A stretch of DNA of 9,412 nt, taken from NCBI GenBank assembly GCA_001803565.1, contig MHDQ01000140.1, positions 1 to 9,412 of the forward strand. The letters run 5' to 3'. This document shows, piece by piece, positions 1,147 through 9,412 of this stretch. The position numbers and the translations under genes were made by a program. The notes below the pieces were generated by a model. It had not been told where the DNA came from, made no database searches, and worked only from the letters and a program-made list of their open reading frames with translations. This DNA comes from Nitrospinae bacterium RIFCSPLOWO2_12_FULL_45_22. GTDB lineage: Bacteria; 2-12-FULL-45-22. Within the stretch, counting starts at the first letter, position 1. Each line of letters begins with the position of its first letter.

Positions 1147-3744
1147 TTATGCTTTATCTACCTTTACCTTTACACAAAGGTCCCAATTTTGTACCGTCCA
1201 GTCCACGCATTTCGGGTCGAGCTTCATAAGCCATTCAAAGCATGACCCCTTCTCTGGTTGGCTGGCAATCGGGAGGTATTTTGACCAATGCCCGCCACAG
1301 TTGGCTATGGCTAAACATTCCGGATGGACACCCTGGGTGAGATGGAGCTTACCCTTAGTCCTCCCACCATACATTGACTCAATCCATACCCAGTCCCCTT
1401 CCTTCAAACCCTTCTTCTTACCATAGTCCTCATTCATTACCAGGTTATAGACAGTAGGGTCTATCTGGCCCAGATCATCCAACCAGGCATTATTATAGGT
1501 AGAGGAGAAGGTATGGGTAGGGACCCGGTAATAGAAGGCATATAGGTCAAAGCCCGGTCTTTTCTCCTCATGGGAGGCGCAAGGGCCCCAATCGGGCAGG
1601 GGCTGTAGATCGGAAAAATCCAGCTCTTCGCCATAAGTTAGCTGTCGCAGGACTTCTTCGGTCCGTTCTCGCAGATCAACGAACCATTCAAAGTAGATCG
1701 GTACCCTTAATTTCATAAAATGTTTCCAATAAGACTCTTCTGGCTTTTTCTTCCATTTTATAACCCCATTTTTCTTAAACCATTCCAGGTTGTGATCTTC
1801 GCCAAAATGGGACTTAAGGGTAAGGTCTAGGATTTCGGTCCAGGTATAACGTTTATTGGGATCAAGGAGATATGGCTCCCGGAGCTGGGCAACCATATTA
1901 TATGTAGCAGCAAAATCCTGCCACAAATCTAGCTTATCTAACAGATGGAATATTATTTCATGCCGTGGCTTTCTTTCATAAAGGGGCTCTACAATGGGTT
2001 GCCGCAAAGAGGTTAGCCATTCCTTCAAAATAGCTGAGTTGTGGTATCCAGCCAGGGTAGGTGGTTGGGGCAAGTCGTACCTCTCCAGATAAGAGGCCTC
2101 TGGCAGGATAAGGTCAGCAAATTCAGTCACCTCATCCAGGTGCAAGCTTAATGAAGCTACAAAAGGAAATCTCTTGATGGCTTCTGCTACCTTGGGGATC
2201 TCGGTATGGGTCATAATCACATTACATCCCGTCATGAGGAGAACTTCTGGAGTATATTTGAGCCCATACTTTGCCGGGTCTAGCAGAGTAAAGGGCTGCC
2301 CAGTACCCAGCACAGACAAGGGGGATATTTCCTGCAGAGATATATTTTCTGGCACCTTTACCTCACTGAGCGCGGAAGGTGGTGGGCCGATCCAGCTACC
2401 AGCAATAAGGAGGCCATCAGGGCCCTCGATAGGTTCCCAGCGCGGTAGCCCGGTCTCAGGGTAGCCCAGACACCTGGGATTACTACCCAGGAGGCTGCCG
2501 GGTGTATCGGCCGCTCCAACTATCTCTGGGAGGAGGGAAAGGGCCATAGCCGTCCACAGGGTATGCTTATGGGCCTGAGCACCCTTAAAATAGAGCACCC
2601 CCACGGGCCGATGGGGTAGTTTATGCCCTTCAATTTCAATAGAGCTGCCAATCCGAGCCGCTTCACCAAATTCCTTTGTAATCCTCCTGATAGTACCGGC
2701 TGGGACACCACTAATTGATGCCGCCCCTTCGGGGGTATATTTTTTAACATGATCTTTAAGCGCCTGGAAGCCAGGGCAACAGGTCTCTCCATCAACCCCA
2801 TAAGTACCGGTAAGGGCGAAATCCTTTATTGTAGGATCATCATAGGTCTTGGCTTTCCCTTCCCCAGCATCCCAGACCAGGGGTTTTGAGGTCTCCCGGT
2901 CTCGCATATATTTACCGTTTTTCTTAATGAGATAGGGGGCATTGGTATGCGTCTTAAGGTGTTCGGCATCATATAGGTTATACTCGTTAACCAGGAGGTT
3001 AATCATACTTAGGGCTACATAACCATCCGTCCCGGGCTTTATGGGTATCCATTCATCGGCCCTCTCGGCTGGTGTGGAGAGCAAAGGGTCTAACACCACT
3101 ACCTTCATACCCCTTACCTTGGCATCGGCTATCCACCTCATCGAGGCCGTAGCATTATAATACATCCCAGCACCGGCCCCACAGCCAAACATCAAGAGAT
3201 AATTACAATGATCATAGTCTACCTGAGTATGGATAGCCCCATGGAGTATGGCCGCCATAGCATGCTCGCCATTGCCACAATGGGGTCCGGCGCCACTCAC
3301 CCACCAGTTACTGAAATAATTGAGGGCCATCCACCAGGCGGCCGTGAAGCCAAAAGATAAGGTATCTACTGCACTAAAGGTGAGGGTAATAGAGCGAGGG
3401 TCTTTTTGCCGGGCCTCTTTTAATTTGGCAGCCAGGGTATCGAGGGCCTCATCCCAGCTTATCCGCTGCCAGCCGGGGTCAATACCTATTCCCTTTTCTG
3501 GATTGGTACGTTTTAAGGGATAATTAACCCGGTTAGGGTCATAAAGGAGCATGATCCCTGATTGCCCCTTGGCGCATATCCTCCCCCCACCACCGGCATT
3601 AGCTGCTTCTGGGTGCCCTTCGATCTTTACCAGGACACCATCTACTCTCCGGGCCCTTATGGTGCAGTTGGAGTAACAGATGTTGCAAACCGAGGGTATC
3701 CAGACATCCTCTTTTTCTGCCTTAAGCTCTTTTACTAAAGCCAT
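1147..3744 (-). CDS. Molybdopterin (Mo/W) oxidoreductase catalytic subunit, CISM/DMSO reductase superfamily
   Basis: The chosen start is the ATG at 3744, giving 865 residues. It has GGAGG upstream and lies one base after the stop of the MoaD-like gene; a longer reading to 3798 would overlap that gene. An N-terminal [4Fe-4S] motif C20-x2-C23-x3-C27-x29-C57 is followed by K59, the conserved lysine of this superfamily. The pterin-binding core follows, with ISWDEALDTLA and GAGPHCGNGEH. C156 in the latter motif is the likely Mo or W ligand. The C-terminal dinucleotide-binding domain (LKEGDWVWIES, NCGGHWSKYLP) closes the protein. There is no RR Tat motif, so the subunit may stay cytoplasmic. The partners are the ferredoxin subunit and NrfD-type anchor downstream. 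The substrate is not identifiable; polysulfide/thiosulfate reductases and acetylene hydratase are distant superfamily members. Confidence 0.92.
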   Translation of the reverse strand: MALVKELKAEKEDVWIPSVCNICYSNCTIRARRVDGVLVKIEGHPEAANAGGGGRICAKGQSGIMLLYDPNRVNYPLKRTNPEKGIGIDPGWQRISWDEALDTLAAKLKEARQKDPRSITLTFSAVDTLSFGFTAAWWMALNYFSNWWVSGAGPHCGNGEHAMAAILHGAIHTQVDYDHCNYLLMFGCGAGAGMYYNATASMRWIADAKVRGMKVVVLDPLLSTPAERADEWIPIKPGTDGYVALSMINLLVNEYNLYDAEHLKTHTNAPYLIKKNGKYMRDRETSKPLVWDAGEGKAKTYDDPTIKDFALTGTYGVDGETCCPGFQALKDHVKKYTPEGAASISGVPAGTIRRITKEFGEAARIGSSIEIEGHKLPHRPVGVLYFKGAQAHKHTLWTAMALSLLPEIVGAADTPGSLLGSNPRCLGYPETGLPRWEPIEGPDGLLIAGSWIGPPPSALSEVKVPENISLQEISPLSVLGTGQPFTLLDPAKYGLKYTPEVLLMTGCNVIMTHTEIPKVAEAIKRFPFVASLSLHLDEVTEFADLILPEASYLERYDLPQPPTLAGYHNSAILKEWLTSLRQPIVEPLYERKPRHEIIFHLLDKLDLWQDFAATYNMVAQLREPYLLDPNKRYTWTEILDLTLKSHFGEDHNLEWFKKNGVIKWKKKPEESYWKHFMKLRVPIYFEWFVDLRERTEEVLRQLTYGEELDFSDLQPLPDWGPCASHEEKRPGFDLYAFYYRVPTHTFSSTYNNAWLDDLGQIDPTVYNLVMNEDYGKKKGLKEGDWVWIESMYGGRTKGKLHLTQGVHPECLAIANCGGHWSKYLPIASQPEKGSCFEWLMKLDPKCVDWTVQNWDLCVKVKVDKA

Positions 3745-3745
3745 A

Positions 3746-4060
3746 CTATTTTCCTCCCTGCAAAGGTGGTATAAAGAATACCTCAATCTCTCTATCATTT
3801 TCCCCTAGGACTTCATTCAGGGCCACCAGATCAGAGGTAAAATCCCAGCTCTTCCCTTTGACGGCAATATGAACTTCGGGCTTAAGACGCGGCTTCCCGG
3901 TATCTTCCCTTATGAGCATCCGCTTCATCTTATCACCGTATTGCTGGCAGAGATGGTTTATTAAGTCGAGGAGGGTGGCCGGTGGATCAATATGGAGGGT
4001 AATTTTGCCCGACTCTACCAGGAGCCGGAACTGTCCGTAAAACCTTACCTTAACTTCCAC
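3746..4060 (-). CDS. MoaD/ThiS-family beta-grasp protein
   Basis: This reading gives 104 residues from a GTG at 4060 (AGGGA lies eight bases upstream) and starts just before VEVKVRFYGQFRLL, which is where family homology should begin. A longer reading to 4165 would run into the attC-like hairpin and adds a non-family N-terminus. The pattern of an early beta strand, a helix around TLLDLINHLCQQYG, a central VHIAVKGKSW strand and a terminal EVFFIPPLQGG fits the MoaD/ThiS ubiquitin-like fold. That fold carries sulfur as a C-terminal thiocarboxylate during molybdopterin synthesis. Here the protein ends GGK rather than GG, so a lysine would need removal or the protein does not form a thiocarboxylate. 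It sits one base before the oxidoreductase gene, implying translational coupling and dedicated cofactor supply. Confidence 0.78.
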   Translation of the reverse strand: MEVKVRFYGQFRLLVESGKITLHIDPPATLLDLINHLCQQYGDKMKRMLIREDTGKPRLKPEVHIAVKGKSWDFTSDLVALNEVLGENDREIEVFFIPPLQGGK

Positions 4061-4149: not shown

Positions 4150-4220
4150 CACTAACGGCAGGCATACCCGGCTGGTAAAAGCCGCCAGGCTTTTACCAGC
4201 CGGGTATCCCATAGTTAGGC
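4150..4220 (-). other. attC-like recombination site at the far end of the cassette array
   Basis: Read on the minus strand, an R'' box GCCTAAC (4220-4214, a perfect RYYYAAC) is followed by a six-base spacer, a perfect 20-bp stem with a four-base loop (4207-4164), a seven-base spacer and an R'-like GTTAGTG (4156-4150). The CTAAC/GTTAG ends pair with each other. This box-spacer-stem-spacer-box layout is that of an integron attC. It differs from the other attC sites here because the main stem has no extrahelical base and R' departs from GTTRRRY. It follows the small antitoxin gene and abuts the redox operon. A hairpin with a terminator role is the alternative, although no U run follows on either strand. 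Confidence 0.55.
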
Positions 4221-4740: not shown

Positions 4741-5100
4741 TGTCGTTTCACCTTCCAGGACAAGAGCGATCTTGTGCCAAGTCTAGGAGACACGAAGCGT
4801 CACTTCTTGAACGACCTTCGGCTCTGGGTCGGAGGTAAAAGAAGGCATTGTGAGAGTGCCTTTCCATACCCCAGAGATATCCGGGATGCCAGCCAGGATT
4901 TGCAAACCGGGCCACCTCCACAAATAGTTATTGAAAAGCCAGAGCAGCGACCCAAAAATAAAGAACACCGAAGGGGCTGCAAATCTATAGTGGGCGAGCG
5001 CCGGGATCAGAGCAAGAAGATAGGCTCCTGCTAAACTGGCCGCACCGAGCAAAAGGTGGACACGCGGCCTAGGATCGGTATCAACAGAATAATTAATCAT
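4741..5100 (-). pseudogene. Cap15-like (2TM plus beta-barrel) CBASS effector, interrupted and 3'-truncated
   Basis: From the ATG at 5100 the protein reads MINYSVDTDPRPRVHLLL. It has two membrane helices (about residues 15-36 and 43-62), then YLWRWPGLQILAGIPDISG and VWKGTL, landmarks of the Cap15 family, whose beta-barrel domain binds cyclic nucleotides and drives membrane damage in CBASS defence. After VTLRVS comes TAG (4785-4783). The same frame continues TWHKIALVLEGETT, which fits the family's QTWxKI-like strand, so one C-to-T change of CAG to TAG would explain the stop. The family match ends near 4741 and PIN sequence follows, so the rest of the barrel is missing. No CD-NTase gene is in the window. 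The attribution rests on remembered family landmarks. Confidence 0.62.
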
Positions 5101-5151
5101 TTGCTGCAGAATCCTCGATGAATTCTCGTGTTTGAGGTTTGATGGATAGAA

Positions 5152-5239
5152 GCCTAACGACCTAATCAGCCGCCGGGCCGATGACTGAAATGTAAACCAC
5201 ATCCGGCTATTCCCGGTCGGCTGGATTAAATGGTTCGCC
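5152..5239 (-). other. attC recombination site (secreted-protein cassette)
   Basis: On the minus strand the site runs from R'' GGCGAAC (5239-5233) to a perfect R' GTTAGGC (5158-5152). The arms CAGCCG-A-CCGGG and CCCGGCGGCTG form an 11-bp stem with one extrahelical A on the left arm, the asymmetry that orients real attC sites. About 34 bases lie between the arms. The site follows directly after the secreted-protein gene and opens the Cap15-containing cassette. R'' departs from RYYYAAC and is not complementary to the core at the start of its own cassette, so that cassette may be a hybrid. Confidence 0.85.
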
Positions 5240-5259
5240 GCCACTGTTCCTTCGTCAGC

Positions 5260-5784
5260 CTACTCCGGGGGGCGGGGTGGGTCGCGTTCCGCAGCACCGC
5301 AGGACACCGTAACCGTGTAGGCATCATCGGTGTGGCCTTCTCCGTCCTCGCCGTGCCAGTGGTTCCATCGGCCTTCCACGATACATAGCGCCCCGGGCTT
5401 GTGAAAAGCATAGACCGTACCGTCTGGCCCGTCGGCATCGTGAGACAGTGTCGGGGACCACCCCTTCCTCTCGAAGTACTCACCAAGCCATTCGTCTGCA
5501 GAGCCCTGTTGGCCCAGGGCACTGAACCGACCAGACAGCGTCACCACGCACCCATCTCGTACGCATCCGAACCTGGGATCGAGAAAGGACGTTGTGGCTA
5601 CTCGAACACTGCCACCCGGCACTTTGGCCAGACTGAGATGTAAGTCGCGGCACATGCCATGTATGAGCGCCTTGGTACCCGGAGTACTTACAGCAGGGCA
5701 TGACTCCTCTGCAAAGACGACACGGCTACCGCAGCCCATGAAGACAGCTAATATCCAGACGCTCATCCAGGCACTCCATCTCAT
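5260..5784 (-). CDS. Cysteine-containing secreted cassette protein of unknown function
   Basis: The ATG at 5784 has GAGG six bases upstream and is preferred over the ATG at 5799. The 174-residue product starts MRWSAWMSVWILAVFMGCGS followed by RVVFAEE, an N-terminal hydrophobic export signal. Cleavage after VFA is likely; FMGC is a poor lipobox, so a lipoprotein is possible but less likely. The mature part carries cysteines in SCPAV, GMCRDL, FGCVRDGCVV, LCIVEG and VSCGA, suggesting disulfide bonds in the cell envelope, and a His/Trp-rich RWNHWHGEDGEGH stretch. I do not recognise a named family. The gene is clearly richer in GC than the cassettes either side and is bounded by attC sites, so it was acquired as a cassette. 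Confidence 0.72.
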   Translation of the reverse strand: MRWSAWMSVWILAVFMGCGSRVVFAEESCPAVSTPGTKALIHGMCRDLHLSLAKVPGGSVRVATTSFLDPRFGCVRDGCVVTLSGRFSALGQQGSADEWLGEYFERKGWSPTLSHDADGPDGTVYAFHKPGALCIVEGRWNHWHGEDGEGHTDDAYTVTVSCGAAERDPPRPPE

Positions 5785-5828
5785 GACCACCTCACCCATC
5801 GCAAGCCAGCGAATGCAGTCCGCAGCGC

Positions 5829-5859
5829 GTTGTTCCGGGCGCGAAGCATCCGGAACAAC
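5829..5859. repeat. Palindromic cassette core (GTTGTTC/GAACAAC hairpin)
   Basis: GTTGTTCCGG at 5829-5838 and CCGGAACAAC at 5850-5859 form a perfect 10-bp stem with an 11-base loop. The right arm contains the R' core of the neighbouring attC. On the minus strand the second heptamer, GAACAAC, is followed by GCGCTGCGGACTG, which resembles an attC left half. A cassette starting G-TTGTTC would carry exactly this R'' box. This could be the remnant of a tiny gene-less cassette. Confidence 0.5.
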
Positions 5860-5913
5860 GACAAGGGTAACTTGCGGCGGTTTTTAGCCGTCAAGTTGAC
5901 CCGCTGGTTAGAA
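5853..5913 (-). other. attC recombination site (first cassette, integron copy 1)
   Basis: On the minus strand R'' TTCTAAC (5913-5907) is followed by GGGT-C-AACTTG-A-CGGC, an eight-base loop and GCCG-CAAGTT-ACCC, ending at R' GTTGTTC (5859-5853). The 14-bp stem has two extrahelical bases, C and A, both on the left arm, as in functional attC sites. R'' TTCTAAC is exactly complementary to GTTAGAA, the core at the start of the same cassette next to attI (6475-6469). At 61 bp it is near the lower limit for attC sites. The stop codon of the preceding reading frame lies inside R''. Confidence 0.85.
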
Positions 5914-6377
5914 CCATATTTTTACGTTTGATATCTTTAATAATTCGGTAATTATACAATGAATTCTTTTTTTTCTATCAATTTCCCATTTGGTTGCATC
6001 ATTAGCAGCCGCATGTGCCAATGCTTCCTGACTTGGGGCAATAGCGGCTGCTATGCCAAAAATTCCAAGTTCGTTTACTTGATTATATCCTTTTCATATT
6101 CTGCCCATTTCTGATTAAACCTATCGAGACATCTGCCGCTCAGGTTTTTGGCGAAGATTTCCTTCATAGCTCTGTGGTTCTTGAACTCGGTAAGGAGGCT
6201 GTAATTCAGGCTGACTCCTTTGTCTTGTAGGGTGTTGAGAAAGTGAAGCAGTGGATCGGCAAACTTCGCGTACTCCTTGTCGAAATTTTCTCGTTTCTGG
6301 CAAACCTCTTTATACCTAATATGGATCAACCAGCCGATCAAAACACAAAGGATTGGAATCAATATGATGTTCTGCAT
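5908..6377 (-). pseudogene. Membrane-anchored cassette protein, split by a frameshift
   Basis: An ATG at 6377 with AAGG eight bases upstream opens a 100-residue frame ending at 6075. It holds one N-terminal membrane helix (IILIPILCVLIGWLI), then a soluble helical part through DRFNQKWAEYEKD. A second protein-like frame overlaps its end and runs to the TAA at 5908: VNELGIFGIAAAIAPS through ATKWEIDRKKRIHCIITELL. It has no start codon of its own near its beginning. The two frames together make about 155 residues, with the shift near GAAAAGG at about 6090. Helical cassette proteins with an FxxAWxxY-like segment followed by a C-terminal IxxLL helix are familiar, which supports one ancestral gene. 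A TTG at 6404 is an alternative start without a ribosome site. Function is unknown. Confidence 0.5.
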
Positions 6378-6467
6378 ATAAGCCTTGGGGTTCTGATAAC
6401 CCAATTTTGGATGTGGTGGTGGATTCTGAATGATAAAAACAAAGATGATTAAATTGTTGTTTGGATT

Positions 6468-6587
6468 CTAACAAGTTATTCTATAGTTTCTTAATAACTC
6501 CGCACCTCAAGGGGTTCCTTCAGGGCTCTATGCATTAATAAGTTATGTTGTCTATCCAGCCCATGATCCCCTGACCTCTCAGATACC
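6468..6587 (-). repeat. Putative attI region, copy 1
   Basis: This 120-base segment is repeated at 9293-9412 with one difference (A at 6522, G at 9347). It lies between the start of an IntI-type integrase gene and the first cassette of an array running the other way, which is where attI belongs. On the minus strand it ends in ACTTGTTAG, and the two copies diverge inside the GTTRRRY core: GTTAGAA here, GTTAGGC in the other. Related motifs GAGTTATTAA (6500-6491) and AACTTATTAAT (6545-6535, approximate) could be extra integrase-binding repeats. A weak minus-strand promoter, TTGAGG and TATAGA with a long 19-base spacer, might be a cassette promoter. Confidence 0.72.
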
Positions 6588-6703
6588 CCTTAAATCATTA
6601 TAAAATAACAATAATCTCCTGATAGATTTTTTGCAACAATATATTTGAATCTTTCTGTATAACATGTCATTTTTAAGATTATATAGAGATAGGAGAATTC
6701 TAG
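6588..6703 (+). promoter_or_regulatory. AT-rich leader of the integrase gene
   Basis: This very AT-rich stretch lies between attI and the integrase start codon. It ends with GATAGGAGAATTCTAG before the ATG at 6704, so AGGAG is a good ribosome-binding site. Several TATA-like hexamers are present, but no -35/-10 pair stands out. CTGTATAACATGTCAT resembles only the left half of an enterobacterial LexA box, so SOS control is not supported. Confidence 0.45.
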
Positions 6704-6946
6704 ATGTTGGCTATCCCTTCCGCATTACAGGCACAATTTGAAGAATATTTACGAAATAAGGAAATTCCAAGCAGCTTGCAAGGGACGTATAAAAAGTGGC
6801 TGCGCTATTACCTGGACTTTTGTCAGAAGTATCACTTCCCTCCTATACCTAAAGAGAGTCTGCCCCACTTTATCCACAAATTGCAGGAAAAGAAGCAAAC
6901 GAAGGAGCGACAAGAGCAGGCCGTAATGGCGATAACGGTGTATTAG
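6704..6946 (+). pseudogene. intI: Integron-type tyrosine integrase, N-terminal fragment
   Basis: The 80-residue frame MLAIPSALQAQFEEYLRNKE through LRYYLDFCQKYHFPP and LQEKKQTKERQEQAVMAI matches the N-terminal SAM-like core-binding domain of IntI-type tyrosine recombinases. It ends in TAG at TVY, just where YYEL would be expected. Full IntI proteins are about 320-340 residues with a C-terminal catalytic domain (R-H-R-Y); all of that is missing, so this copy cannot recombine. Downstream sequence is a group II intron fragment on the other strand, so the loss is a deletion or rearrangement rather than a point mutation. The gene points away from the minus-strand cassettes, the canonical integron layout. 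Confidence 0.82.
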
Positions 6947-7122
6947 ATGGAGGACTTCGCTGTCACATGCCAACTCGTCCCGGATGTACCACACCTCATA
7001 TCCGGTTTCTGTTCCCCGGATCAAGTCCGGGGCAGGCTCTTGCCCTTCTCCTAGCCTTCGGCTCCGCTTACACCTGGCGCAAGGACTCTCACCTCGCTAG
7101 CTCTGTGCCATGCCCGGCACAC
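6947..7122 (-). ncRNA. Group IIC-type intron, 5' fragment inside an attC core
   Basis: On the minus strand the sequence begins GTGTGCCGGGCATGG, matching the GUGYG 5' end of group II introns and the GTGTGCC-GGCATG opening typical of class C bacterial introns. GAGGTGAGAGTCC, GGAGCCGAAGGC and GACAGCGAAGTCC follow, as expected of domain I. Internal stems such as CCCCGGA/TCCGGGG (7014-7032) are visible. It directly follows the attC hairpin of the DUF2442 cassette; class C introns insert after hairpins, and a subgroup uses attC. Only about 175 bases remain, with no reverse transcriptase and no domain V, before the truncated integrase is reached. The 5' end could be 7122 or 7124 because of GT repeats. 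The assignment rests on recalled consensus. Confidence 0.65.
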
Positions 7123-7175
7123 ACGCCGAAATCAGCGGCGGCGTTTACGCCGTCCGCTGGATTGATTTGTTCGCT
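7122..7175 (-). other. attC recombination site, R' interrupted by intron
   Basis: On the minus strand R'' AGCGAAC (7175-7169) is followed by AAATCAATC, the stem CAGCGG-A-CGGCG / CGCCGCCGCTG with loop TAAA (11 bp, one extrahelical A on the left arm), then ATTTCGGCGT. Where the R' core GTTRRRY should finish, the intron-like sequence begins. R'' is exactly complementary to GTTCGCT at the start of the same cassette (7777-7771). The end of the DUF2442 reading frame runs into this site, giving its terminal SIQRTA. Confidence 0.82.
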
Positions 7176-7456
7176 GATGGTTTTCGTTGCTTTTCCATCC
7201 AACTGGGAAGTGCTGCTCCAGTGGCTTCGGAGTAAAGCGTCTCAGGAGCAATGTCTATCTCATCCTGCCAAGTGATGACGCCAAGCTCTTCATTTATCTT
7301 AAAGTTCTTGAAAAAGGTAATGTCTTTGAAACGATCAAAAACGCCACCCTTTTCAAGATAGCTTGAGAAATCTACGATTCCCCCTTTCCCATCATCAAAC
7401 CTGACTTCAATCTTGTATTCAGCCTTGTAACGGGCGAAAACCAGATCGTGTATCAT
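7145..7456 (-). CDS. DUF2442 domain protein
   Basis: The start is the ATG at 7456, with GGAGG eight bases upstream; a longer frame to 7603 would overlap the DUF4160 gene. The 103-residue product MIHDLVFARYKAEYKIEVRF, then GGIVDFSSYL, FKDITFFKNFKINEELGVIT and WQDEIDIAPETLY, matches the DUF2442 pattern. DUF2442 genes often pair with DUF4160 genes in a toxin-antitoxin-like arrangement with unproven roles; here the DUF4160 gene ends 13 bases upstream. The C-terminus PSANKSIQRTA is encoded by the attC itself and is probably not functional sequence. The pair would act as a self-maintaining cassette if it is a true toxin-antitoxin system, which is inference. Confidence 0.83.
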   Translation of the reverse strand: MIHDLVFARYKAEYKIEVRFDDGKGGIVDFSSYLEKGGVFDRFKDITFFKNFKINEELGVITWQDEIDIAPETLYSEATGAALPSWMEKQRKPSANKSIQRTA

Positions 7457-7469
7457 TATCGACCTCCTT

Positions 7470-7730
7470 TTATACCAACGGTGGGATCTTCTTTGGTGGC
7501 ACATTTTGCTTTGCCAGTTCCCAATCGCTGAGCAGTTCTTCCCGGTGCTGAGAGGCCCATTCCATAACAAGCCCCAACGCCCGATGAGGAATATGTCCCT
7601 CAAGGATTCGTAACGAGTCTATCCCAATCGCCACATTGTCCTTGCCGTACCGCGCATGAAAATGGGGCGGATTGTAATCATCAAAAAACATGGCGATTAT
7701 GATTCCAAAAAATCGGCTGATCTCAGGCAT
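7470..7730 (-). CDS. DUF4160 domain protein
   Basis: The 86-residue product MPEISRFFGIIIAMFFDDYN followed by PPHFHARYG and ALGLVMEWASQHREELL matches DUF4160; the FFDDYNPPHFHARYG motif is its hallmark. The ATG at 7730 has only a weak ribosome site (TAGG), and initiation close to a cassette boundary is common. The protein is acidic and helical towards its C-terminus, with a terminal PPKKIPPLV. It is the first gene of a two-gene cassette with DUF2442, whose left and right core heptamers match each other. The two families frequently co-occur and are suspected of forming a toxin-antitoxin module; no biochemical role can be read from the sequence. Confidence 0.85.
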   Translation of the reverse strand: MPEISRFFGIIIAMFFDDYNPPHFHARYGKDNVAIGIDSLRILEGHIPHRALGLVMEWASQHREELLSDWELAKQNVPPKKIPPLV

Positions 7731-7770
7731 CCTGAACCTATTCTACCTTACATAGAATATTATTTCAAAC

Positions 7771-7860
7771 AGCGAACGACCGAAATCAGGCGCGCGGGCC
7801 AAAGACATTGCCCGTTAGGCCCCGCAGACCCTTCCCGTCGCCTGAATTGATTGGTTATGC
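7771..7860 (-). other. attC recombination site
   Basis: On the minus strand R'' GCATAAC (7860-7854) leads to AATCAATTCAGGCG-A-CGGG. After a loop come CCCG-CG-CGCCTGATTT and R' GTTCGCT (7777-7771). The stem has 6 plus 4 bp separated by a small internal bulge. The TGATTTCGG before R' is the same as in the attC at 7122-7175. R' opens the DUF4160 cassette and matches that cassette's own R''. A second core-like GTTAGGC lies in the loop on the plus strand (7814-7820). Confidence 0.68.
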
Positions 7861-7864
7861 CGCC

Positions 7865-8092
7865 ATGTGCGACCGTTTTGAACAGACTCTTCTATTAACC
7901 GGCATACAAGGTCCTTGCTTGATTTACCTGACTTTACCCCAAATTATGTACACTACAGGTCGTGAATATGAAATGCATAATGTGATCAAGGCAATTTATC
8001 AAAAGGAATCTAACATAGATTTCTTGGTAGTGTATGAAATGTACACCACCTCCCCTGTTGTCCGAACAGAAAAGCTGGAGTTTACCCAATGA
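7865..8092 (+). CDS. Small hypothetical protein, opposite to the cassette direction
   Basis: An open frame of 75 residues from the ATG at 7865 reads MCDRFEQTLLLTGIQGPCLI and continues through EYEMHNVIKAIYQKESNIDF and VVYEMYTTSPVVRTEKLEFTQ. The mixed hydrophobic and charged composition looks protein-like, but no ribosome site precedes the ATG, which lies only four bases from an attC boundary. I recognise no family. It fills most of the space between two attC-like sites where no minus-strand frame of similar length exists. It could be a reversed cassette gene, a fragment of a longer gene, or chance. Confidence 0.3.
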   Translation: MCDRFEQTLLLTGIQGPCLIYLTLPQIMYTTGREYEMHNVIKAIYQKESNIDFLVVYEMYTTSPVVRTEKLEFTQ

Positions 8093-8128
8093 TAATGGGT
8101 AGTGTATAAAACTTATGGAAAAGTCAGG

Positions 8129-8157
8129 CGATTTAAGGTCACCGGACAGCGTTGGGC
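8129..8157 (-). other. Partial attC (left half) after the 35-residue gene
   Basis: Two bases after the stop codon of the small lysine-rich gene, the minus strand reads GCCCAAC (8157-8151), a perfect RYYYAAC box, then GCTGTCCGGTGACC, which looks like an attC L'' arm. No matching right arm with a GTTRRRY box follows. The site therefore seems truncated, or joined to foreign sequence near 8125. Confidence 0.5.
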
Positions 8158-8159
8158 AT

Positions 8160-8267
8160 CTATTTATTCTTCTTTTCTTTTTTCAATTTGCGCTTTTCCT
8201 TTGGAGTAAGCTGAGCCTTTTTTTGCTGTTCTTTTTTGCCTTTATCTTTACTTCCCTTATCACCCAT
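8160..8267 (-). CDS. 35-residue lysine-rich cassette protein
   Basis: This very short gene encodes MGDKGSKDKGKKEQQKKAQL followed by TPKEKRKLKKEKKNK. The ATG at 8267 has an excellent ribosome site, AGGAGA, eight bases upstream, and the gene is followed within two bases by an attC R'' box, both arguing that it is real. About half the residues are basic, so it is strongly cationic and probably binds nucleic acid or an acidic surface. I recall similar tiny MG(D/N)KGSKDKGKK proteins recurring in unrelated bacteria, without assigned function. No domain can be named. Confidence 0.68.
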   Translation of the reverse strand: MGDKGSKDKGKKEQQKKAQLTPKEKRKLKKEKKNK

Positions 8268-8289
8268 TTCTGTTTCTCCTTGCTGTAAA

Positions 8290-8660
8290 ATGGTTTGCGC
8301 CGGACTGTGGCGCCGAAAACCCTTCTTCTGTCGTAGAAGTTAGCAGATGGGATCGCTTGGCGTCACCGCCAAATGCATCCAATATGCCAGGAACTTCATC
8401 GGAAAACCCTCAGCGGCTTCATCATCTGGATTCGAAACCGACGGGCACAGCTTGTTGGCGGTATCCAGCCTGATGGCGTCACGCTCGTCGATTTCTCACC
8501 CGTCCCCTATCACTACCCGGCCTGGGGCGTGCGGCATAATCGGGATAGGGAGGAGCCTCACGACTCCCCTCCTCCCTTTTTATCTAAAAACAGGAGGAGC
8601 ATTTTACCCTTAAAGGGGGGTCAGTTCTATATGAGGATAAGGGGTCAATTGTATTTTACG
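8290..8660. other. Unassigned GC-rich stretch, probable mobile-element debris
   Basis: No convincing gene was found. Overlapping plus-strand frames of 88 and 106 residues lack ribosome sites and family resemblance. The stretch holds several short hairpins (TTGGCG/CGCCAA at about 8357-8372; CTTCT/AGAAG near 8330), one terminator-like structure, and at 8617-8656 two related minus-strand motifs, GAACTGACCCC and CAATTGACCCC, of a type often seen near insertion-sequence ends. It separates a truncated attC from the next cassette gene. Confidence 0.4.
8548..8581 (+). terminator. Terminator-like hairpin with T run
   Basis: GGGAGGAG (8548-8555) and CTCCTCCC (8569-8576) form a perfect 8-bp GC-rich stem with a 13-base loop, followed by TTTTT (8577-8581) on the plus strand. 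This fits a Rho-independent terminator for plus-strand transcription. No clear plus-strand gene precedes it, so it may belong to a decayed element. Confidence 0.55.
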
Positions 8661-8667
8661 ATATACA

Positions 8668-8695
8668 TCCGGTCAACTCCAATGACTTGTTAGGC
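8668..8695 (-). other. Partial attC (left half) after the YgiT-type gene
   Basis: On the minus strand a perfect R'' GCCTAAC (8695-8689) is followed by AAGTCATTGGAGTTGACCGG, an attC-like L'' arm. The complementary right arm and R' are absent; the sequence changes to AT-rich, element-like DNA. ATGGCCTAAC, including R'', is complementary over ten bases to GTTAGGCCAT at the start of the same cassette (9297-9288), which ties the site to the DUF4258/YgiT cassette. Confidence 0.62.
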
Positions 8696-8718
8696 CATGT
8701 GTTCCTTTTACTGTGATT

Positions 8719-8964
8719 CTACGATACGACTTGAAAGGATTTTCCAATCGGCTGAAACTCATCTGTCTGTTGACGTTCAAGTTGAGTTACAATGTGTTCA
8801 AATCGCCTGATCGTCTCGGGAGTATACAATCTCTCTCCGCAATGGAGACACATCCCAGCCTTGACAGTGAGAAAGGCGGTATTGGTTCCTCCAGAGAGAA
8901 CCTCTTTTACTTCCTTTTCAATAACTTGACCGCCGCAATGGGGACATTTTTCTACGTACTTCAT
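8719..8964 (-). CDS. YgiT-type zinc finger antitoxin-like protein
   Basis: This 81-residue protein begins MKYVEKCPHCGGQVIEKEVK, with a second metal-binding pair in GMCLHCGERLYTPE. The two CxxC pairs form the zinc site of YgiT/MqsA-type proteins. A C-terminal helix (TIRRFEHIVTQLERQQ) follows, but no helix-turn-helix DNA-binding domain, so it is the short form. Its ATG overlaps the stop of the DUF4258 gene by four bases (ATGA), implying translational coupling. In this arrangement the zinc-finger protein is usually taken as the antitoxin of a RelE/MqsR-like DUF4258 partner. The cassette's attC box lies 23 bases downstream. Confidence 0.85.
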   Translation of the reverse strand: MKYVEKCPHCGGQVIEKEVKEVLSGGTNTAFLTVKAGMCLHCGERLYTPETIRRFEHIVTQLERQQTDEFQPIGKSFQVVS

Positions 8965-9275
8965 CTATTTCTCCTTTCTTTCCAATTGATCCACCGACTT
9001 GGATCGGGACGATACACCGTAATCAAAACAGCTATTTTGCTTCCAGCATCGTAAGCCCACACGCTATGAACTGGATCACCCAGGAACGTGGTACCATATA
9101 TTAAGCAGCTTGGGTAGGGTGTATCGTCTGGATACTCTTCAATGATTTCACCTGTCTGGGTAGAATGGAAAATGTCGTCTAAAACCAACAAATCATTTTC
9201 GGCTTCCTTTCTGGCGTGAAGCGTAATGTTGACTCGGGTTGCATGGATCGCTTCTATAATCTCGTCAATCTTCAT
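8961..9275 (-). CDS. DUF4258 protein, putative toxin of the YgiT-type pair
   Basis: The 104-residue product MKIDEIIEAIHATRVNITLH continues ARKEAENDLLVLDDIFHST, then GEIIEEYPDD, PSCLIYG and DPVHSVWAYD, ending in VLITVYRPDPSRWINW. The early HARKEAEND, the IIEEYPDDxPYPSCL segment and the ITVYxPDPxRW end are hallmarks of DUF4258, a small family with an expected RelE/MqsR-like fold. Its usual partner, a YgiT-type zinc finger, follows with a four-base overlap. The ATG at 9275 lies 22 bases from the attI/cassette junction and has only a weak ribosome site. As the first cassette after attI it would be the best expressed of the second array. RNase activity is inference. Confidence 0.84.
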   Translation of the reverse strand: MKIDEIIEAIHATRVNITLHARKEAENDLLVLDDIFHSTQTGEIIEEYPDDTPYPSCLIYGTTFLGDPVHSVWAYDAGSKIAVLITVYRPDPSRWINWKERRNR

Positions 9276-9292
9276 TTATTGATCCAAATGGC

Positions 9293-9412
9293 CTAACAAG
9301 TTATTCTATAGTTTCTTAATAACTCCGCACCTCAAGGGGTTCCTTCGGGGCTCTATGCATTAATAAGTTATGTTGTCTATCCAGCCCATGATCCCCTGAC
9401 CTCTCAGATACC
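9293..9412 (-). repeat. Putative attI region, copy 2 (runs to window edge)
   Basis: This copy matches 6468-6587 at 119 of 120 positions, 2825 bases away, and reaches the end of the window, so the repeat may be longer. On the minus strand it ends ACTTGTTAGGC, a perfect GTTRRRY core, followed directly by the DUF4258/YgiT cassette. By analogy with copy 1, a second integrase gene on the plus strand is expected to start near 9529, beyond the window. Confidence 0.75.

Follow-up and report, generated by a model that had tools for sequence, protein, structure and literature searches.

Two near-identical attI sites on a Nitrospinae contig point to a decayed head-to-tail pair of chromosomal integrons

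The window analyzed here is the whole of a 9,412-bp contig (G000:C140, MHDQ01000140.1) of Nitrospinae bacterium RIFCSPLOWO2_12_FULL_45_22, and its right edge is the contig end. The source genome is a 3.67-Mb assembly of 321 contigs that is 85% complete, and only one other genome of the same phylum (G001) was present in the searched set. Left of position ~4200, the genes, named from their translations alone, look like those of ordinary metabolism and include molybdopterin oxidoreductase and ferredoxin-like proteins. Between these chromosomal genes and an array of gene cassettes lies an inverted repeat (4161-4210) whose 23-bp arms match almost perfectly around a 4-nt loop; it may be a terminator-like or REP-like element.

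A repeat search of the window found a 120-nt segment at 6468-6587 and again at 9293-9412, with a spacing of 2,825 and 119/120 identical positions (99%). The blastn E-value of 1.4e-55 is far beyond chance. The initial annotation had reported this repeat with its single mismatch, one copy by a truncated integrase and the other at the right edge, and all of this was borne out: an 80-aa open reading frame at 6704-6946 accompanies the first copy, and the second reaches the last base of the window, where the contig also ends. It had also claimed that the copies agree on the minus strand as far as an integron core and then diverge. The flank alignment agrees, with 117/118 identical positions up to and including the core GTT and 19/69 beyond it; AG, the two bases past GTT, is also common to both window copies. 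On the minus strand, copy 1 takes in the beginning of the region upstream of intI and has its core G at 6472 (GTTAGAA), and copy 2, cut by the contig end, has its core G at 9297 (GTTAGGC).

Two further copies of the segment are present in the same genome, at C28:344-474 and C304:6480-6611. The window copies are 99% identical to each other, and 94-95% and 93% identical to the C28 and C304 copies, respectively. After a common ...TTGTT, the four copies continue as AGAATCC, AGGCCAT, GGGACGA and ATGCACC, giving the cores GTTAGAA, GTTAGGC, GTTGGGA and GTTATGC, with divergence at the same core in 4/4. The three copies whose sequence can be read further (C140 copy 1, C28 and C304), none of them at a contig end, stay ~92% identical across the AT-rich DNA upstream of intI and on into its 5' end, where they have the integrase start MLAIPSxLQAQFEEYL in common. 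The repeat is therefore part of an attI-intI head and extends beyond attI alone. Since divergence sets in directly behind the core GTT in all four copies, and three of them can be followed on the other side to the same intI 5' end, we read the segment as attI plus the promoter side of intI, and the break as the junction between attI and the first cassette. As expected of an attI, the segment lies beside intI and carries a GTTRRRY-like recombination core, at which the four copies diverge. The initial annotation had asked whether the repeat occurs elsewhere without cassette context. It does occur elsewhere, always beside an intI head, and the attC model search detected no attC directly adjoining the C28 and C304 attI copies.

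The truncated integrase gene (6704-6946, plus strand) encodes an 80-aa stub that holds only an N-terminal extension domain (PF13495, E=2.9e-7). Aligned to IntI proteins of ~450 aa, the stub falls on their N-terminal extension; it is 88% identical to the C28 copy and 57% identical to a homologue in the other genome of the phylum (G001:C19). The assignment to integron integrases, ahead of Xer recombinases, comes from that homologue, whose best model is TIGR02249 (6e-44, versus 1e-14 for XerD, and well above XerD/XerC), and from the C304 stub (TIGR02249, 2.4e-10); on the window stub alone the TIGR02249 match is weak (0.0023). The G001 homologue had no relative among the viral contigs searched. 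Every assembled copy of the window family is broken: C140 retains the stub, C28 combines an insertion sequence, a TAG stop and a frameshift, and C304 has a large internal deletion. The G001 copy is likewise truncated. The region of the IntI-specific additional domain (patch) and the catalytic residues are absent from all copies of the family. No functional intI gene of this family, such as a complete integron carries, was found in the window, on C28 or on C304, and the assembly, at its 85% completeness, contains no intact copy. The earlier suggestion that an intact integrase serves these sites is thus not supported by the assembled copies of the family. In C28 (L016), the insertion sequence occupies 489-1806 between attI and intI, encodes a DDE transposase (DUF4372 + DDE_Tnp_1) and has the ends ACTACTGTCCGG and CCGGACAGTAGT.

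Cassette boundaries were located with an attC covariance model, R1, for which sites on other contigs and in other genomes served as training material and the window was left out. R1 returned two significant attC sites, one per array and both on the minus strand (5856-5910, E=6e-5; 7123-7170, E=1.4e-4), which bound cassettes, and weaker or partial sites at 5152, 7778 and 8671; all attC hits in the window fall on the minus strand, which is also the cassette strand. A strict attC pattern scan of the window returned no site because the attC cores there have diverged.

Array 1 lies left of the first attI copy (attI-1), with all its elements on the minus strand. Its first cassette (6075-6404) encodes a small membrane-type protein of no family and is followed by the attC at 5856-5910 (24.5 bits). 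The second cassette reading frame (5260-5799) also belongs to no family. The next attC (5152-5236) scores weakly with R1 (9.2 bits, E=0.65) and has an intact 3' core, GTTAGGC, and complementary L boxes recognized by eye (AATCCAGCCGACCGGG / CCCGGCGGCTGATT); a similar sequence occurs in C136 (82% over 72 nt). The third reading frame (4783-5244) is Cap15-TM-like, with a match below cut-off (PF23471, 7.8e-4).

Array 2, also on the minus strand, lies between the second attI copy (attI-2) and the intI stub. Its first cassette (8719-9275) encodes a DUF4258 protein (8961-9275; PF14076, 2e-20) and an MqsA-like zinc-ribbon protein (8719-8964; PF15731, 1.8e-6, just under cut-off), which from their family matches might form a toxin-antitoxin-like pair. 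Beyond it lie a truncated attC 5' half at 8671-8695 (GCCTAACAAGTCATTGG; weak R1 match, E=1.7), which is an inverted match to the attI-2/cassette junction, and a degenerate attC at 7778-7855 (8.8 bits, E=0.81) with visible complementary L boxes. Cassette genes for DUF4160 (7470-7730) and DUF2442 (7145-7603) proteins follow within 7145-7730 (Pfam 2e-20 and 2.2e-16). The attC of the last surviving cassette spans 7123-7190, of which 7123-7170 is the R1 match and the stretch to 7190 was recognized by eye, and its 3' core is interrupted by an intron. From the positions of the two arrays relative to attI-1, attI-2 and the stub, the arrangement is therefore head-to-tail.

The interrupting sequence (6947-7122, minus strand) is a 5' fragment of a group II intron, placed in the attC core and fused to the intI stub. 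Rfam at its gathering threshold gave no match in the window, and a relaxed search placed RF02001 on 7014-6921 at 31.4 bits, where the gathering score is 32. The fragment aligns to introns in C17 and C87 at 122-125 bits. In 3/3 genomic copies the intron begins inside the attC 3' core, with GTGTGCC directly after CGT. Group IIC-attC introns are known to insert at a GT/T site in the attC core, typically in the orientation opposite to the cassettes (PMC7923331). The insertion point agrees with this at all three loci. Unlike the typical case, the intron here runs with the cassettes: intron and cassette are both on the minus strand, as is the attC hit. The introns were on the cassette top strand in 3/3 cases, namely the window (7122-6947, minus), L019 (~7520-7040, minus) and L136 (~3450-3894, plus). 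None of the three copies is full-length: each is either a fragment or cut off by a contig end. Past 6946 the DNA is no longer intI, and a deletion must have joined the interior of the intron to the interior of intI; the order of events we infer.

Integron heads are abundant in this genome. It contains 34 TIGR02249-like stretches, many of which are fragments and some of which are other tyrosine recombinases; two are intact and above the curated TIGR02249 cut-off (C243 and C304:4451-5815), and either could possibly act in trans on the window attI copies. On C304 (L017, 4451-7088) three intI heads stand in tandem, first the intact 454-aa IntI, next a fragment at ~6032-6208, and last the attI copy followed by the broken intI that belongs to it. 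A second attI-intI head family also has several copies, at C248 (L018, 1-270), C17 (L019, 11055-11634) and C206 (L020, 37-403). A third intI family is represented by C136 (L117, 3130-3725) and C317 (L119, 3561-4156), which are 83% identical in DNA and have the same internal deletion (profile positions ~125-268). This suggests that an already defective intI was duplicated or that an unusual short form was retained twice. Five contigs (C17, C248, C206, C7 and C304) stop at intI or close to it. Of 80 IntI loci taken from other genomes, 5 contained a second intI-like cluster, on the same strand only in L060 and L076. Tandem heads are thus uncommon but not unique. The paper library searched yielded nothing on tandem integrons or tandem intI1 copies.

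With attC sites, all on the minus strand, on both sides of the two attI copies, the locus resolves into two head-to-tail integrons of one attI family. We consider it very probable that the window holds a degenerate chromosomal integron pair that is now a CALIN-like remnant, which is one of the arrangements (tandem integrons or a duplicated intI-attI unit with attI-like repeats) first proposed for it. Along the minus strand, the order is attI-2 at the contig edge, the array 2 cassettes, the attC with the group II intron fragment, the intI-1 stub on the opposite strand, attI-1, the array 1 cassettes and the chromosomal genes. As in any integron, IntI would have joined a cassette attC to attI at G^TT. 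Such joining would give each attI its own first cassette, which would explain why the sequences match as far as GTT and differ from there on. For the two heads, the most likely origin is duplication of one intI-attI head, with integrase-driven cassette change following or accompanying it. The window copies are closer to each other (99%) than to those on C28 and C304, so a local duplication or local exchange is likely, and near-identical attI sites with different first cassettes suggest integrase activity after or during the duplication. A later deletion would have brought the intron fragment up against intI-1 and inactivated that gene. Counting against a tandem pair, the DNA right of attI-2 is unassembled, the second intI, which would lie beside attI-2, is unseen, several attC sites of array 2 are weak or partial, the C28 and C304 attI copies showed no directly adjoining attC, and the intI family lacks the patch region in every copy. 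Both integrons are decayed.

That the repeat is an assembly artefact, through a wrong join at the contig end or a collapsed repeat, is scarcely credible. In its favour, the last base of the contig is also that of the repeat, and further contigs with an intI stop there or close by. Against this, the copies differ by 1 base, their flanks differ, and the divergence coincides with the biological core in four independent contexts. A common segment that stops at the same core triplet in four contexts argues against an assembly join, and the flanks are no assembly duplicate because the C28 and C304 copies have other flanks and 4/4 diverge at the same core. With the divergence aligned to the core, we rejected the artefact. 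An origin by homologous recombination, with separate integron loci that had this attI-intI head in common as partners, is somewhat unlikely: at least four copies at 92-99% identity offer substrates, but the window copies are far nearer each other than either is to C28 or C304.

Site-specific recombination, in which attI x attI or attI x attC exchange inserted a circle or replicon with its own cassettes, intI and attI, and the head moved as an oversized cassette, is an unlikely route for the second head. It would fit the unit between the cores (9297 to 6472), which has core sites as its bounds, and the occurrence of one attI family at four places, with C304 holding three tandem intI heads. Plain duplication with cassette exchange reaches the same end point, however, the assembled intI copies of the window family are pseudogenes, and attI x attI exchange is inefficient in the integrons studied. 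A broader idea, that in this lineage the head (attI + intI) is itself mobile, spreading and stacking in tandem by attI-targeted recombination and leaving dead heads behind, we regard as very tentative. It is also quite unlikely that an intact intI of the window family stands just past 9412, serves attI-2 and keeps array 2 live. The genome is incomplete, and on C7 (L147, 4168-4474, minus strand) the contig end falls inside an intI, a different IntI, with an intact C-terminal end, so that C7 is a candidate partner for the right edge of the window, in compatible orientation. On the other side, the remaining copies of the family are all broken, the array 2 attC sites are degraded, and no link was found between 9412 and C7. 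The initial annotation had proposed extending the assembly past 9412; no continuing contig turned up, and a 17-mer taken at the end of the contig has matches only in C140 (twice) and C304.

The decayed integron pair can be set beside known systems. A 2008 survey of chromosomal integrons recorded several intI per genome, many of them pseudogenes and some derived by intragenomic duplication, and a group of IntI ~120 aa longer than usual (PMC2426708). Multiple and pseudogene intI are found here as well, and the long IntI resembles the N-terminally extended IntI of this genome. In contrast to the surveyed integrons, this locus has two tandem heads of one attI at a distance of 2.8 kb, and C304 has three in a row. 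CALINs are attC clusters without an integrase, and among the origins proposed for them is that mutation, insertion or deletion left no recognizable intI (PMC8618304). With at least two attC sites and no functional intI, the contig as assembled to 9412 qualifies as a CALIN, having attC-bounded cassettes and intI loss by deletion and insertion; unlike a CALIN, it keeps a recognizable attI, in duplicate, and an intI stub. The geometry is uncommon, yet known integron biology accounts for it: multiple intI, pseudogenes, introns that target attC, and the formation of CALINs.

The new element is a mild one, namely near-identical attI heads stacked in tandem in a sparsely sampled phylum, since multiple intI and pseudogenes are already documented. 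A search of the plasmid collection with the attI-intI segment gave no match, and the four natural attI-cassette junctions map the recombination point of an attI that is unmatched there. Overall, in one genome, from a phylum represented by two genomes in the searched set, integron heads have repeatedly been duplicated, stacked in tandem and lost to decay, and the significance of this would be greater if the heads prove to move by site-specific recombination.
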